This document shows, piece by piece, positions 2,041 through 13,800 of a DNA stretch of 32,129 bases. Each line of letters opens with the position of its first letter. Within the stretch, counting starts at the first letter, position 1. The notes below the pieces were generated by a model, which was not told where the DNA came from, did no database searches, and saw only the letters and a list, made by a program, of their open reading frames with translations. The position numbers were made by a program, and so were the translations under genes. Source of the stretch: a virus; the IMG/VR virus record IMGVR_UViG_3300030098_003457, positions 1 through 32,129 of that record; one strand, written 5' to 3'.

Positions 2041-3435
2041 TTAATCCACCACCCGTAAACGCGCGTTTACTGGTACCGCAAACTCAGCCCGGTGTCGGTC
2101 GCCCACAAACTTAGTGGGGCCGCACCACCTGAGGTCAATCACTGACAGAGCCCCTGTCCTGCGCTTCTTGCTGTAGACCTGCAAGGTATTGCGCGGCCCC
2201 TTGATATCTGCATGAGGGTCGCGCTCCCGATAGTAGTCTGGACGGTGGAGGGTATACACCTCTTCAGCCGTTTGGTGTGCCACCGAGGAGAACTGTATAT
2301 CAAACATCTCGGGTGGGGCTGGTGCCTTGCCCTGCTTCTCACCAGATACTTGTGCGCCAAGTAGAATCGGGACACCGAGATCACTGGCCAACTCCGATAG
2401 CATCACCGACTTGTGCGCTGTTTGCTGGACCCGATCCCCCAGCCTGACACCAAGCCCACTGCTATCGTGTATCGCTTGTAGGTAGTCGATGATGATGCAG
2501 TCGAGCCTGCCCTGTGCGTGCAACTGCCTGGCCTTGGTGCATATTTGCTCGACCGTGAGACCTGTGCCGGTGATGGTGAGGGGCTTAGACCTGAGCCACT
2601 CCACTTGCTCAACTGTCCTGTCGTACCAGGCTGCAACGTCCGCTGCTATGTCGAGGTCATCATCCCCCGATGCTCGGATGTCGGCCAACTCCTTAGTGAG
2701 CAGTGCCCACTTCCTACCCTCAAGCCCTGCCCTTGACCGCGCCATATCCGAGAGCCGCCTTTGCACTGTTGTCTCCACCCCGTGGATGTAGACCTTGAGC
2801 CCCTTTGCCAGCATGCCCATCGCCATCGTGTTGAGCAGTGTCGTCTTGCCTGACCCTGATCTACCAGCAAACAGGCTTAGACCCTCTCGACTGACACCGA
2901 CAAAGTTTGGATCATCATCCCACTCAGGGATACCGCTCGGCATGTAGGCAAGCTTGGTACCCTCTGCCACCGCTACCAAATCATCAATGAGTGCATCGGC
3001 TGCCTCGTTCATGCTGGTGGTACTCAAGTCTGAAATGTTCGAGGCTGCTCCTACCATCTCAACGCTTGCTTGGTAGGCATCGGTCTTCCCTTGCTCCAAC
3101 TCGTGAGAGATAACGCGCAGCTTGCTGATAAGCTTTCTCCGCTGGCTGGCCTTCCTCATCTCAAGGATATACCTCTCGATGTTCAAGCCAATGGCACCTC
3201 GATCTCCCAGTGACATCACATACTGGAAGTCAATCTCTGGATTCGATTCTTTCAACAGGTACTTAGAAATAGACTCGGTACTGACGGGCAAGCCCTTGTC
3301 CCACCTCTTGACCATCAACTCGTAGAGCTTGGAGTGCATCTCGATTTCGGTGAAGTCATCAGGTTCGAGATCCAACTGATTCGGAGACACCACCTCACCT
3401 AACACACAGGCCAGCACGTTCTTCTCTGCACTCAC
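2041..3435 (-). CDS. dnaB: DnaB-type replicative DNA helicase
   Basis: This 464-aa protein matches the DnaB family in length and layout. It has a helical N-terminal domain (about residues 1-100; EKNVLACVLGE, then IEMHSKLYELMVKRWDKG), a linker and a RecA-like helicase domain. Walker A is GRSGSGKTT at 191-199, Walker B is CIIIDYLQ at 313-320, and LLGAQVSGE at 358-366 matches the glutamine-containing sensor motif. KKRRTG at 423-428 fits the C-terminal basic motif. DnaB hexamers unwind DNA 5' to 3' at replication forks. The gene is last in a leftward run after the 160-aa gene, whose stop overlaps its start by 4 bases. That position suggests the 160-aa product may act with it, for example in loading. 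Confidence in the family is high. Confidence 0.93.
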   Translation of the reverse strand: MSAEKNVLACVLGEVVSPNQLDLEPDDFTEIEMHSKLYELMVKRWDKGLPVSTESISKYLLKESNPEIDFQYVMSLGDRGAIGLNIERYILEMRKASQRRKLISKLRVISHELEQGKTDAYQASVEMVGAASNISDLSTTSMNEAADALIDDLVAVAEGTKLAYMPSGIPEWDDDPNFVGVSREGLSLFAGRSGSGKTTLLNTMAMGMLAKGLKVYIHGVETTVQRRLSDMARSRAGLEGRKWALLTKELADIRASGDDDLDIAADVAAWYDRTVEQVEWLRSKPLTITGTGLTVEQICTKARQLHAQGRLDCIIIDYLQAIHDSSGLGVRLGDRVQQTAHKSVMLSELASDLGVPILLGAQVSGEKQGKAPAPPEMFDIQFSSVAHQTAEEVYTLHRPDYYRERDPHADIKGPRNTLQVYSKKRRTGALSVIDLRWCGPTKFVGDRHRAEFAVPVNARLRVVD

Positions 3436-3914
3436 TTGGCAACCCTCCGCAAGCCAGCAACCTCACGCACCATGTCTGGATTCGTCACAGCAGAATCCAA
3501 CCAAATATCCAGACGGCTTTCATTCATTGCTTTCTGAATCTCCATTCGATTCTTCCTCCACCAAATCTTAGCCAACCCTGGTGTGTCGGTGTTCACCCTG
3601 TTGCTACTGGTCTCCTGCTCCTGAGCAAGCACTCCCTTGTGCTTCATCTCATCGTAGGCATCCTCCCAAATCGCCCAGTTCTTTGCTCTGAAGAAGGCAG
3701 CATGCGGTAACTGCGGGGTGTTGCGCCACCATGCGAATGCTGGATGGGTCCAGTACATCTCCCAGATTCCAAGCCAATGCTCAGGATCTTCCGCTCTCTT
3801 CAGACTCTTGGAGAACTCAGCCTTCCACGTCTTGAGCTTCAACTCCCTGGTATCTGGTCCAAGTTGGTTCTTTCTAATCTCGTTTGCTCTTTGCCATACT
3901 TCTTCTGTTGTCAT
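3432..3914 (-). CDS. Hypothetical protein, possible replication partner or helicase loader, 160 aa
   Basis: I do not recognise the sequence. The ATG at 3914 has a good AAAGGAG site seven bases upstream. The protein is basic and unusually tryptophan-rich (about 11 Trp, including WEMYWTHPAFAWW). It looks largely helical and has no ATPase motif, so it is not a DnaC-type AAA+ loader. It lies between a winged-helix initiator-like gene and the DnaB helicase, overlapping the latter by 4 bases. Phage loaders or DnaT-like factors often sit here, so a helicase-loading or primosome role is inferred from position only. Confidence 0.6.
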   Translation of the reverse strand: MTTEEVWQRANEIRKNQLGPDTRELKLKTWKAEFSKSLKRAEDPEHWLGIWEMYWTHPAFAWWRNTPQLPHAAFFRAKNWAIWEDAYDEMKHKGVLAQEQETSSNRVNTDTPGLAKIWWRKNRMEIQKAMNESRLDIWLDSAVTNPDMVREVAGLRRVAK

Positions 3915-3936
3915 GCTTGTGCTCCTTTAAATGTGC

Positions 3937-3954
3937 GTTGGATTCCTATCCAAC
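3937..3954. repeat. Inverted repeat in leader of the 160-aa gene
   Basis: A perfect 7-bp inverted repeat, GTTGGAT then TCCT then ATCCAAC, lies 23 bases upstream of the minus-strand start at 3914, just ahead of its ribosome-binding site. In the mRNA it would form a small hairpin; in DNA it could be an operator. No T-run follows, so a terminator is less likely. Confidence 0.5.
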
Positions 3955-3990
3955 AGATATATTAATAAGATAGTTAATTGAGATAGTTTA

Positions 3991-4054
3991 GGGTCAGGAG
4001 ATGACCCCCTAAATGAACTCCATTTGACCCCCCCCGGGGTCAGGAGATGACCCC
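3991..4054. repeat. GGGTCA/TGACCC half-site array, candidate origin or operator
   Basis: Two near-identical units, GGGTCA-ggaga-TGACCC (3991-4007 and 4037-4053), are each perfect inverted repeats. A further TGACCCC half-site at 4025-4031 faces the second unit across four C bases, so five half-sites alternate in direction within 64 bases. On the left lies an AT-rich stretch (3955-3990) with a 13-base-spaced direct repeat, AGATAGTT at 3968 and 3981. The array lies between the initiator-like gene and the 160-aa gene. Protein-bound repeats beside an AT-rich stretch resemble theta-type origins. A repressor operator for the leftward genes is the main alternative. Confidence 0.6.
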
Positions 4055-4056
4055 CC

Positions 4057-4410
4057 CTATTCAACAAGACGTAGCTTTGAGGCATACCTCTTCTCCTTTT
4101 CACTACGCTTCTTTGTGAAGTCTTCCCCCTCTCGTAAACTGCCACAACAAACCTCAAAGATTAGACAACCCCTGTACTTGCCTGTCTCTTTGACACCGTA
4201 AGACTCAAGCCAACCAAGCTGAACCAACTGGCGGCGTGCCCTCTTCATTGTATTGACCGACATCTGGCATGCGTTGGCAATGGCGTTGTTGCCATAGAAA
4301 GCAATGAGTGTGTCGTTGTTTGATCGATCCCAGTAGAACATCAAGACACGATACTGGTTGGGCGTAAGCCTTGCCCCCTGTATCTCTCTCAAGATTTCCC
4401 ACTTATCCAT
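4057..4410 (-). CDS. Winged-helix protein, replication-initiator-like, 117 aa
   Basis: Residues about 13-70 form a helix-turn-helix of the winged type: LTPNQYRVLMFYW, then NNAIANACQMSVNTMKRARRQLVQLGWLE, followed by a short beta wing (KYRGCLIFEV). The same arrangement occurs in the N-terminal DNA-binding part of phage replication initiators (lambda O type, DnaD type) and in some transcription regulators. The C-terminal part is short and basic (KKRSEKEKRYASKLR), with no obvious second domain. It is followed at once by the GGGTCA array and then by two genes linked to replication, which favours an initiator that binds that array. The ATG at 4410 has AAGGAAAAG upstream. The specific role is inferred. 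Confidence 0.68.
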   Translation of the reverse strand: MDKWEILREIQGARLTPNQYRVLMFYWDRSNNDTLIAFYGNNAIANACQMSVNTMKRARRQLVQLGWLESYGVKETGKYRGCLIFEVCCGSLREGEDFTKKRSEKEKRYASKLRLVE

Positions 4411-4454
4411 ATCTTTTCCTTAGTTCATGCACTGGTCAGGTGCGATTAGATTGT

Positions 4455-4518
4455 GGTTGGTGTGGTCTTTGTCGGTGAAAGCCTCCCCCCTCCATGCCGA
4501 GAAGGGAGGCCACCAACC
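4455..4518 (-). other. Nested hairpin in the 212-base gap downstream of the RuvC gene
   Basis: The gap 4411-4622 holds no gene I can support. Two nested perfect stems are visible: an outer GGTTGGTG (4455-4462) with CACCAACC (4511-4518), and an inner GCCTCCC (4481-4487) with GGGAGGC (4504-4510). The stems abut on one side and are separated by 18 bases on the other. Read on the minus strand, the inner stem is followed by TTTC, so it could attenuate transcription from the RuvC gene into the initiator-like gene. A structured RNA leader is also possible. Confidence 0.45.
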
Positions 4519-4622
4519 AACAGACTAATCCCAAGGATGGAATCAACAAAGAGCCGAGAAAAAGGAAGAGGCTCAATCTGTTGTTGCAAGGGACCAACCT
4601 TGCCATTCAAAACTAAAAGACT

Positions 4623-5138
4623 TCATCCCCAGTGTCCACCAGAAATCAATCCAAACATGGCGAGACATGCAGCGTCAGCGATTCCATCGTGTGGTTTTCT
4701 TCTCTTGCCAGGGGTCAATGTCAGGTTGGGAAGACGTTGCTTGCACAGCAGAACAGCCCGACCTTTACCTACTCCCGGCACATCCTTGAGGATACGCTTC
4801 TGCCAAGTGCGAGGATGCACCACCTGAACAGGGATGCCAAGGGTAGCAATCGACCCCAGCCATAAGCCATAGCCTACACCAATGCTGAACATCGACGTGC
4901 CACCTTGACCCGGCATGGCCTGCTGCTTCTCGATGACCACCAACTGCACACCATAGAGAGCATGCAACTCAACGAGACAGTTCCCCATTGCAGCAGCATC
5001 GTACTCTCGACGGCTGCCCTTACCAATAGGTACAGTGAACTCATCTTTAGTCAACTCAACACGACGCACGGTGCCATCAAAATCAATAGCAACCAACGCA
5101 CCATCTTTGCCCGGATCAATACCAACAACGAGCTTCAT
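4623..5138 (-). CDS. ruvC: RuvC-type Holliday junction resolvase
   Basis: The 171-aa product has the RuvC/RNase H-fold layout. GIDPGKDGALVAID places the first catalytic Asp at residue 8, VVIEKQQ a Glu at residue 70, and the C-terminal HDGIADAACLA acidic residues at 151 and 155. These are the four metal-binding positions expected of a resolvase cleaving four-way junctions. Phage resolvases of this type clear branched DNA before packaging. The ATG at 5138 is preferred over an in-frame ATG at 5171 because a GGAGGGG site lies just upstream. It also gives an ATGA 4-base overlap with the preceding regulator gene, indicating coupled expression. Confidence is high. Confidence 0.88.
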   Translation of the reverse strand: MKLVVGIDPGKDGALVAIDFDGTVRRVELTKDEFTVPIGKGSRREYDAAAMGNCLVELHALYGVQLVVIEKQQAMPGQGGTSMFSIGVGYGLWLGSIATLGIPVQVVHPRTWQKRILKDVPGVGKGRAVLLCKQRLPNLTLTPGKRRKPHDGIADAACLAMFGLISGGHWG

Positions 5139-5395
5139 AGCTTCCCCTCCGCCAAGGTCTTCAGAAGCCATCGAACTTCCTTGTCATTGTACTCCAACGT
5201 CTCAACTAAATCATGCAATATTGCTACGTTAGGATAGCGTCTTCCATTCTCCCAGTGCGACACATAGGTATGGTCAATGTCCAGTAGTTCAGCCAGTTGC
5301 TTCTGGCTATAACCCCTTGTAATCCTTCTGCTTTTTACCATGTAGGCAAAGGTTTTCTTGGGTCTACCTCTGACCCCTGTCTTGTAGGCTGGCAT
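5135..5395 (-). CDS. XRE/Cro-type helix-turn-helix regulator, 86 aa
   Basis: The start at 5395 follows an AAGAGGAG ribosome-binding site. A longer frame upstream would run antisense through the next operon and is rejected. A single HTH_3 domain covers most of the protein: SRRITRGYSQKQLAELLDI (first and second helices), DHTYVSHWENGRRYP (recognition helix and following turn), then NVAILHDLVETL. The N-terminal tail is basic (GVRGRPKK). There is no C-terminal cleavage or oligomerisation domain, so it is Cro-like in size rather than CI-like. A perfect palindrome lies 47 bases upstream of its start, in the divergent control region, and is the obvious candidate operator. It is probably the switch between the leftward and rightward early genes. 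Confidence 0.85.
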   Translation of the reverse strand: MPAYKTGVRGRPKKTFAYMVKSRRITRGYSQKQLAELLDIDHTYVSHWENGRRYPNVAILHDLVETLEYNDKEVRWLLKTLAEGKL

Positions 5396-5441: not shown

Positions 5442-5458
5442 AAGTTCATTGTGAACTT
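5442..5458. promoter_or_regulatory. Perfect 17-bp palindromic operator candidate
   Basis: AAGTTCA-TTG-TGAACTT is a perfect inverted repeat with 7-bp arms and a 3-base centre. It begins at about the expected +1 of the rightward promoter and sits between the XRE-type regulator (start 5395) and the operon start (5487). Half-site size and spacing suit a dimeric Cro-like repressor. Binding there would block rightward transcription. Confidence 0.65.
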
Positions 5459-6107: not shown

Positions 6108-6610
6108 TGAGTAGTACCTGGCAACTCTTAGAAGAAGCGCACCACTTGATGCTCGACTTGGAAGCAGACAACGGTGAACTAAGCGAACAAGCACTGGATC
6201 GCATTGACTCATTCGTAGAAGGGGCAAGCGATAAGGTAGGTGCAATCAGGCATGTCATCGACAGGCTCTCATCAGAGGAGGACTTCCACAAGAAGATGAG
6301 GGACCGCCACCGCAAGAGACTCGGCACCATTGCCAATGCTAAGGACAGGCTGAACGGCTACGCCATGCAGCTACTGCAAGCCAAGGAAGAACTTGGTGAG
6401 GAAGCCAAGGCATCCGGTGAGTGGGGCAGGGCATGGGTTCTGATCTCCCAGTCCATCGAGGTTAGTGACCCGGAGCAGGTGCCAGTCAAGTACCTCAAAG
6501 AGCAGCCACCCAAGGTGGACAAGGCAGCAGCTAAGAAGCACATGAAAGAAACCAACGAGGCCATTCCCGGCTTCACACTAACGACGAACCAATCGGTTCA
6601 ATGGAGATAG
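6107..6610 (+). CDS. Gp157-like phage protein (Sipho_Gp157 family)
   Basis: The 167-aa product fits the Gp157 family. It has a long helical, coiled-coil-like first two thirds (DRIDSFVEGASDKVGAIRHV, DRHRKRLGTIANAKDRLNGY) and a short beta-rich end. That end contains VPVKYLKEQPPKVDKAAAKK and ends in an IPGF..TTNQSVQWR segment, the signature C-terminus of the family. Members sit beside phage annealing proteins and SSB, and some have been linked to phage-resistance phenotypes; the activity is unknown. The ATG at 6107 overlaps the upstream stop (TGATG) and is served by GGGGAGG. Confidence in the family is good. Confidence 0.8.
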   Translation: MSSTWQLLEEAHHLMLDLEADNGELSEQALDRIDSFVEGASDKVGAIRHVIDRLSSEEDFHKKMRDRHRKRLGTIANAKDRLNGYAMQLLQAKEELGEEAKASGEWGRAWVLISQSIEVSDPEQVPVKYLKEQPPKVDKAAAKKHMKETNEAIPGFTLTTNQSVQWR

Positions 6611-10894: not shown

Positions 10895-13800
10895 CCGTGC
10901 TCTACGAGTTAGAGGCCCTGTTGTGGGGCGCTGGCTAAGCTCAATAAGTTCTCTCTCAAGCTGGCGTTCGATCCTGTCCACCGCAGCAATGGGATCTCGG
11001 TACGAACCAACCGTTCCACCAAATCCAAATAGTGGGCCACCAAGCCCTTCTTTACGCCACTCAACAGAGTCAGGACCAATGCCAACACCCGCAAGAATCC
11101 GAGGAACATCCTCGATAGCTCGCTTCTGACCAAGCATAAGAGCACCAACTTGGAACAAGCGAAACATGGCGTTGGGTTCTTCTTCTTCAAACCGATATTG
11201 TTTTCCATTCACAAGAGCAATGTCTTGGCGAATCTCATTATTTGGAACCTGTTCTAACTTAAACAAACTGATGAACTCATCCTGCATTCCAAAAGCAGCA
11301 GCAGCGGCAAGGTATTGAGGAGGCATATAGCCATGAGGGGCTCCACTCCTACCATCCAGTGTGGTCACATCAAACAATGCTTGAAGTCGAGGATCACTCA
11401 ATAGAAACTTACCAGTGCCCTTTACTCTTTCACCAATCGGAAAAGAATCCCGATACCTGCTGTCCATGATCAAACCAATGATGTTGGCAATGCCAGTGAA
11501 CGGCTCTGCAAAAGGAATGTCTGGCCCAAGAGAACCAGCAACCCACTCCCTGAACTTGCCCTTGTAGTCTTTCCACAGACGGGTCTTCATCCAGTCAGGC
11601 TCAAGCACCCACTCTTCCATGTCCTTTCTTTGACCATTGATCCAGTTCAAAGTACCAGCCATGTTGTTCAAAGCTCTGCCATCACGAGCAAAGGCAAGTG
11701 CTGTTTCTACTGCCATGTTGTAGCGGAAGGCAAAGAAAGCCATGTTGCGAGATAGTGTTTCGGCTGCTTTGTTGTTGATCGAAGCATAGTCAAGAAGAGA
11801 AGCACGAGCCAATGCAGCAGCATCAGACTGTTTCATGCCTACCTTCAGGGCATTAGCAAACACAGCCATGCGTTGGGCGTTGTCAAACTCCTCAGACACT
11901 GAGGTCCAAATGGTCTTACGGTCTGGCCTCAAGAACTCCCAGTATCGGGTACGGTTGACGCCACTTGTGCCAGGCACCCTAAGCATTGATTCAATAGGCT
12001 TACCACCCGGACCAAGCCTCGATGCACGGATAGCTCCTTGCAAAGTATCAGACCCAAACTCAAACGTAGCTTGAGAGAATCGTAGGGCGTTCTTTTCTAC
12101 CGCTTCCTCAAAAGCCCCTTTCGTCCAGATCTTTCCAGTAGCAGACCTAAAGGCAATGTCACCCTCATTGCCCGTATACATCATGCGAAGAGGATCGTAT
12201 GCACCCGGACCATTGATTCCACCAGCACGCCTGAATGCACGGACAAAGCCCTGTGCCAAGGTGCTTGGTGTCTTGAGTGCAATGTTAAGCGCATAGCCAG
12301 GAACTGTAATGGCACCAATGATTGAGTTGGTAAGTGCGTTGACACCAATAAATCGAGTGCCCGGAATAACAGAACCACCCAGCACACCCGTCACTGTTGT
12401 CTTTCGGGTAGTGTTCCACAACGAAAGAAGCGAAGAACCAAGGAACCTGTCCTGCTCTCTAAGCATGCTGAGTTGTTTTTCGATCTTACCCCTGAAGTCA
12501 GGAGACGCCATCTTGTCTGCGAACTCTCTCATGCGAGAGTCGAACATCATCACCCCGTTCTCACCAAACGGCTTAGACGGATAGGCAAGCCCTCTTAGGC
12601 TCCGCTCTCCAGCAGTAGACTTTGTGCCGAGGCCACTAAACACACCACGCACATCGTTCATGTCAATGCCAGCAACCGACTTGACATAGGCAGGGACAAT
12701 GATCTTCTCAAGCTCGGTAAGCGTAGGGCCGTCAGGGTTCTTTGCCACAAAGCCCTTGATAGCATCCCTTAGATCCTTGATAGAAGCCTGCGTTGTCTTG
12801 GTCATCACGATGCCAGCAACAGTACCCGTAGCTGCGTTGTACATGCGCTGAAGATCGTCTTGGGTTGCAAGCCCACCCCTTGTAAACAGATCACGCATGA
12901 TGGCTGTTGCAATCGTTCGTCTGTCAGCATTACTTGTTTTGAATGCACGACCCGCAATCTTAGACAACTCGTCTGCAAGTTCTTCAGGAATGTCGTTGTT
13001 CTTGGCAATGTTCTTGAACAACTCAATCCTTGCTGACTCGTCTGCACGAGTAGGAACCTTGACCAACAACGAGGGGTAGAGGTTTTCAAAGTTTCTAACG
13101 GCTTGCTTGTAGACCTCTTCGCTGACGTTGTTGACAACATAAGCAGACAACAAAGCACTAAGGTCATCGTCACCAGTCAGCCGTCCATAGAATGTCTGTT
13201 TCTTGATTGCTGACTTTTCTAAGTCAACAGCCCTGCCTGTGCTGCGACGGACAACCTCAATAGCCTCCTTCATTGTCTCAATGGTCAGAGGTTTCTTAGC
13301 AAGACCTGCTTGTCGCAACGCTGCCTGAAGTTCTCCGTTGCCACCAAAGTAGGCATCCAAAGCACCCGGCTGTTTTACACCAAAGAAGATGTTTAGGATG
13401 TTGGAGTAGTCCTGAATGTTGTCGCCGGAACCAACACGGTTGAGCACAGAGTTCATGCCCGCTACTGGATCAGCAGACTTCTGCGCTTCTAAGATCATCG
13501 TCTCGGCTTTTCTTGCCGTGTCGTTTAGCGTCTTGATTGTCTGTTCTTGGAACTCAATCAATGCAGGGTCTGGCGTCTTTCCAAACATCTCTGCTTTGGG
13601 ACGAGCCCACAATGCGCCTTGTTTGTTAGGGTTTGCAACAAGAGCAGCGTAGTCTGATTGACCTTTGAAGAATGCCCGTGTTCCCTTGACTGCTCGCTGT
13701 GCATACTGAGCAACAGCAAGGTTTCTTCCTTGTCCAAGCTCGGCTGCTTTTCTTGACAACAGTTGTGTACCGTCACGGACAGCAAAGGCTGTAATAGGCA

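Follow-up and report, generated by a model that had tools for sequence, protein, structure and literature searches.

A phage repeat array with the layout of ori-lambda, between genes that may encode two halves of one initiator

What is a compact array of repeats doing between two genes of a phage replication operon? The question is raised by a viral record in IMG/VR (IMGVR_UViG_3300030098_003457; 32,129 bases, analysed in full and called the window here), in which the array lies within an operon on the minus strand, after the gene for a 117-amino-acid (aa) winged-helix protein and ahead of those for a 160-aa protein and a DnaB-type helicase. A sequence-only reading had offered two roles as equals, a replication origin and an operator. 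The options are unequal: the array is organised like a lambda-type origin, and the block is very probably a phage replication origin of ori-lambda build. The layout of two relatives, L025 and L033, upholds this assignment, as does the fused, lambda-O-like gene of L033.

The array itself is easily described, and it has no second copy in the window. GGGTCA/TGACCC half-sites occur at 3991 and 4037 on the plus strand and at 4002, 4025 and 4048 on the minus strand, where the earlier reading had placed them: five in 64 nucleotides (nt), against a maximum of two per 64 nt in 200 dinucleotide shuffles of the window. Five copies of any hexamer within 64 nt were met in none of 100 shuffles. That reading grouped the half-sites into two palindromes and one more pair facing inward. 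The two palindromes stand; the grouping does not, as three repeats starting at 4053, 4030 and 4007 on the minus strand, in a register of 23 base pairs (bp), fit better. The elements are as follows.

4037..4053, minus strand: iteron 1, a 17-bp palindrome of 6-5-6 form, GGGTCA-TCTCC-TGACCC
4014..4030, minus strand: iteron 2, a degenerate copy, GGGTCAAATGGAGTTCA, in the 23-bp register, which retains the first arm only; a middle copy at the same spacing is also found in L025 and L033
3991..4007, minus strand: iteron 3, GGGTCA-TCTCC-TGACCC, the same sequence as iteron 1
3955..3990, minus strand: AT-rich block of 36 bp (83% AT) containing three repeats of TATCT type at intervals of 13 bp; it aligns with the block of L025
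3937..3954, no strand: inverted repeat GTTGGAT-AGGA-ATCCAAC, with 7-bp arms, beyond the AT-rich block

Iteron 1 starts 3 bases past the stop codon of the winged-helix gene. It lies 46 bp from iteron 3, and the two form the sole direct repeat (at least 14/15 matching, period 18-60) in the operon of 3.1 kilobases (kb). The AT-rich block, already described with its AGATA(GTT) repeat at 13-bp spacing, adjoins iteron 3 and has the highest AT content of the initiator region; it is the probable DNA unwinding element. A further site proposed as related, GGTCAGG at 4434, did not hold up: the 7-mer occurs 10 times in the window, and L025 has no copy of its own repeat before the initiator start codon. 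A nucleotide search of phage records with the array region returned no match. Two exact matches to the 17-mer in IMG/VR both lie apparently within a coding gene and were judged to be chance.

The evidence that carries the assignment comes from relatives. Searches with DnaB and terminase returned close relatives that end before the array; the informative ones came from a search with RuvC. The closest relative, G001 (DnaB 98% identical), ends inside dnaB, and thus the array is not comparable in any relative above 90%. In L025, the winged helix, the 160-aa protein and DnaB are 61-65% identical to those of the window; between the winged-helix and 160-aa genes stand three copies of GGTGTTCAGAGCGGAC, spaced 23 and 22 bp, and after them an AT-rich block alignable with that of the window. 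The L025 repeats differ from the window iterons in sequence and equal them in position, number and register. L033 has a single open reading frame (ORF) of 351 aa, comprising an HTH_36 winged helix, the repeats, AT-rich DNA and a 160-aa-like domain. Its winged helix is 28% identical to the 117-aa protein and its C-terminal domain 62% identical to the 160-aa protein; DnaB comes directly after. This fused gene contains two copies of GGGTGTAAAATTCTTTCCCC at a distance of 45 bp and, between them, a diverged one. L032 is 99.7% identical to L033 over 6550 aligned bases. From initiator start codon to first iteron the window has 357 nt, L025 369 nt and L033 350 nt; in lambda, the iterons begin 348 nt into O, at spacings of 20, 24 and 23. 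The earlier reading had suggested looking in related phages for the same arrangement at this place, and both relatives carry it, with the same number and spacing of repeats in another sequence. Two distant loci, L026 and L031, share the order RuvC-initiator-DnaB, which is conserved in the relatives; their probable initiator gene, of 313-322 aa, contains repeats of CGTCCCAA type whose spacings are multiples of 22 bp.

The inverted repeat, rightly noted before, has counterparts too. A perfect inverted repeat lies beyond the AT-rich block in 3/3 loci: GTTGGAT/ATCCAAC in the window, and TGTAGGT/ACCTACA and GTCGGATG/CATCCGAC in L025 and L033. The arms vary in sequence among the three and complementarity is kept, which is suggestive of selection as a hairpin or protein site, in a comparison of three loci whose operons hold inverted repeats of at least 7 bp about once per kb.

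The genes around the array are all on the minus strand; the winged-helix, 160-aa and DnaB genes stand in the order first described.

4623..5171, minus strand: RuvC-like resolvase (phrog_1770, E 6.2e-24), which heads the conserved replication cluster; the order is kept in L025, L033, L026 and L031
4057..4410, minus strand: 117-aa winged-helix protein (HTH_36, E 1.4e-9; phage initiator PHROGs); winged-helix model with a predicted local distance difference test score (pLDDT) of 77
3432..3914, minus strand: 160-aa protein that fell into no family; in L033 its homologue makes up the C-terminal part of the fused initiator
2041..3435, minus strand: DnaB-type replicative helicase (DnaB_C, E 4.2e-29; phrog_19)

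The 117-aa protein matches the phage replication-initiator PHROGs 270, 678 (E 9.5e-6), 391 (E 6e-5) and 345 (E 0.004), and is probably the DNA-binding half of an initiator. Its model matches many winged-helix structures in the PDB, including the plasmid initiator structures 5kbj and 4pt7, at middling scores; so many middling matches mean that the fold points to no single family. The 160-aa protein is harder to place. It matched no loader family in Pfam/PHROG-type profile searches, a PDB sequence search with its profile gave nothing significant, and its structure model is of low confidence (pLDDT 60). A single-sequence scan found no relatives of either protein; in the genome collection, the 160-aa protein had no homologue and DnaB a single distant match. 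From its place and its homologue in L033, it is probably the helicase-recruiting half of the initiator, or else a helicase loader. Its gene starts past the AT-rich block, in another frame than the winged-helix gene, with a strong ribosome-binding site following the inverted repeat. Followed backward from its ATG, the 160-aa frame of both split loci (window and L025) meets a single stop and is otherwise open across the array, which is suggestive of a former fusion. The converse arrangement, in which the C-terminal half of the L033 protein is also made from an internal start at 6496, was considered and set aside: other internal ATGs have ribosome sites at least as good.

We infer the following course of events, in which a single initiator is divided over the 117-aa and 160-aa proteins. 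Dimers of the winged-helix protein would bind the three 17-bp iterons; as these lie about two helical turns apart, the dimers would stack along a single face of the helix, putting it under strain; the adjoining 36-bp AT-rich block would then melt; and the phage's own DnaB would reach the open strand by way of the 160-aa protein. The fuller proposal is that an initiator of lambda type was cut into a DNA-reading and a helicase-recruiting protein, that the origin between them was freed of coding, and that the reading half and the iterons changed among relatives, with the helicase half and DnaB conserved. To this whole proposal we would give an even chance.

Its main competitor accepts the origin and denies the split. 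The 117-aa protein would be an initiator complete in itself, and the 160-aa protein a helicase loader in its own right, comparable to lambda P or DnaC, which in L033 came to be fused to an initiator; this is a serious contender, if a somewhat less probable one. In its favour, the C-terminal part of lambda O and the 160-aa protein show no match in sequence, and no separate loader gene is recognised beside dnaB. It has to contend with L033, where the 160-aa domain takes the position of the lambda O C-terminus: one ORF carries the iterons and, downstream of them, this domain, and immediately after it comes DnaB. Three loci, moreover, do not separate fission from fusion.

Other explanations deny the origin. 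An array that is solely an operator, through which a 117-aa repressor controls the 160-aa and dnaB genes while replication starts elsewhere, would suit palindromic sites beside the winged-helix protein's own gene and ahead of a downstream gene that has a ribosome-binding site to itself; transcription regulators, too, are among the best PDB matches of the 117-aa model. We consider this unlikely because the array of L033 sits in one continuous gene, with no downstream partner in need of an operator. Nor was a sigma-70-like promoter found at 3900-4100, in a scan limited to that type, and a repressor leaves unexplained both the fixed position of the AT-rich block and the initiator profile matches. 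Repression of its own operon by the 117-aa protein, besides an origin role, is possible. Alternatively, the palindromes might work at the RNA level, where a hairpin between the 117-aa and 160-aa genes would serve as terminator or attenuator. They could indeed fold stably in a transcript, but no T-run follows them and a terminator scan was empty here; in L025 and L033, moreover, the copies are imperfect palindromes yet good direct repeats in helical register, which argues for protein binding on DNA and leaves an RNA role very improbable.

Several observations weigh against the assignment as a lambda-type origin. Only two of the three window iterons are intact, and in the collections searched the protein family occurs at three independent loci only. 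The 117-aa protein has no match to Pfam Phage_rep_O (PF04492), which lambda O does match, and its direct similarity to lambda O is weak; it is therefore lambda-O-like in role and layout rather than by demonstrated membership of this Pfam family. The GC skew, finally, does not turn near 4000, as the sequence-only reading had suggested it might; the turn lies at about 5.5 kb, at a change of gene orientation. Since the skew follows gene orientation, it is uninformative on the origin.

Some further features were met along the way. Between the RuvC-like and initiator genes, a conserved non-coding element is present in 3/3 loci (window 4453-4605, minus strand; L025 6570-6700; L033 5745-5905). It contains a hairpin GCAAGGTTGGTCCCTTGC, in which L033 shows one compensatory change, and a long stem GTTGGTTGGTGG...GGCTTTCACCGAC; its fold is better than that of 200/200 shuffles (z -4.2), and 9 pairs show two-sided changes. 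It has no Rfam match, and an IMG/VR scan with its core returned the same loci only; it is possibly a structured leader RNA controlling the initiator genes. At a divergent gene boundary near a Cro/CI-type helix-turn-helix gene lie a terminator-like GGGTC...GACCC hairpin (5360-5376) and a 6-5-6 palindrome, AAGTTCATTGTGAACTT (5442-5458), which could be a repressor operator. On the minus strand of L025, positions 10923-10982 give a sub-threshold match to a type II hammerhead ribozyme (31.4 bits against a gathering score of 37; E 0.01). The 27-kb relative G001 (L008) continues over both ends of the window (1 and 32129), with its own limits near 3.4 and 8.7 kb. The genome is therefore circular or circularly permuted, and the window probably represents nearly all of it.

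What would be new here is the split initiator, together with iteron sequences that are wholly different between relatives; literature searches of partial coverage returned no report of a split lambda-type O. In lambda, the iterons also encode part of O, and hence origin DNA and protein are not free to evolve. The putative origin of the window lies between genes and is released from coding. Across the three relatives, site count, spacing and distance from the start codon are kept and iteron sequence is wholly different, so that they form a natural experiment on the joint change of initiator and origin specificity. If the split is real, DNA binding and helicase recruitment could be separated in tests without engineering O.

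Among known systems, the iteron plasmid origins (P1, RK2, R6K and pSC101 type) resemble the window in that helically phased initiator-binding repeats adjoin AT-rich DNA (PMC5043065); they differ in that the window has two perfectly palindromic 6-5-6 sites, as binding by dimers would lead one to expect. The L033/L032 locus shares the gene cluster, the place of repeats and AT-rich block and the 62%-identical C-terminal part, and differs in its one 351-aa gene, its winged helix (28% identity) and its iterons.

The closest model is lambda. The O gene holds four 18-bp iterons and a 38-bp AT-rich stretch (PMC3349717); O reportedly binds each iteron as a dimer, with its DNA-binding domain N-terminal and its P-binding domain C-terminal (PMC6022878), and its binding opens the AT-rich region (PMC5043065). 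Lambda O and the 117-aa protein share PHROGs 391, 678 and 345, and lambda iteron 1 contains a 6-5-6 palindrome of its own, TCCCTC-AAAAC-GAGGGA. The shared build is thus one of 6-5-6 palindromic iterons about 350 nt past the start codon, spaced 20-24 bp, with an AT-rich block of 36-40 bp next to them; the DNA-binding part is coded first, and the part predicted to recruit the helicase after the AT-rich block. The window departs from lambda in having three iterons rather than four, of another sequence; it encodes its own DnaB after the 160-aa gene, with no recognised gene for a P-type loader, the protein by which lambda recruits the DnaB of its host; and its initiator would be two genes with the origin between them, whereas the lambda origin, like the array of L033, lies inside one continuous gene.
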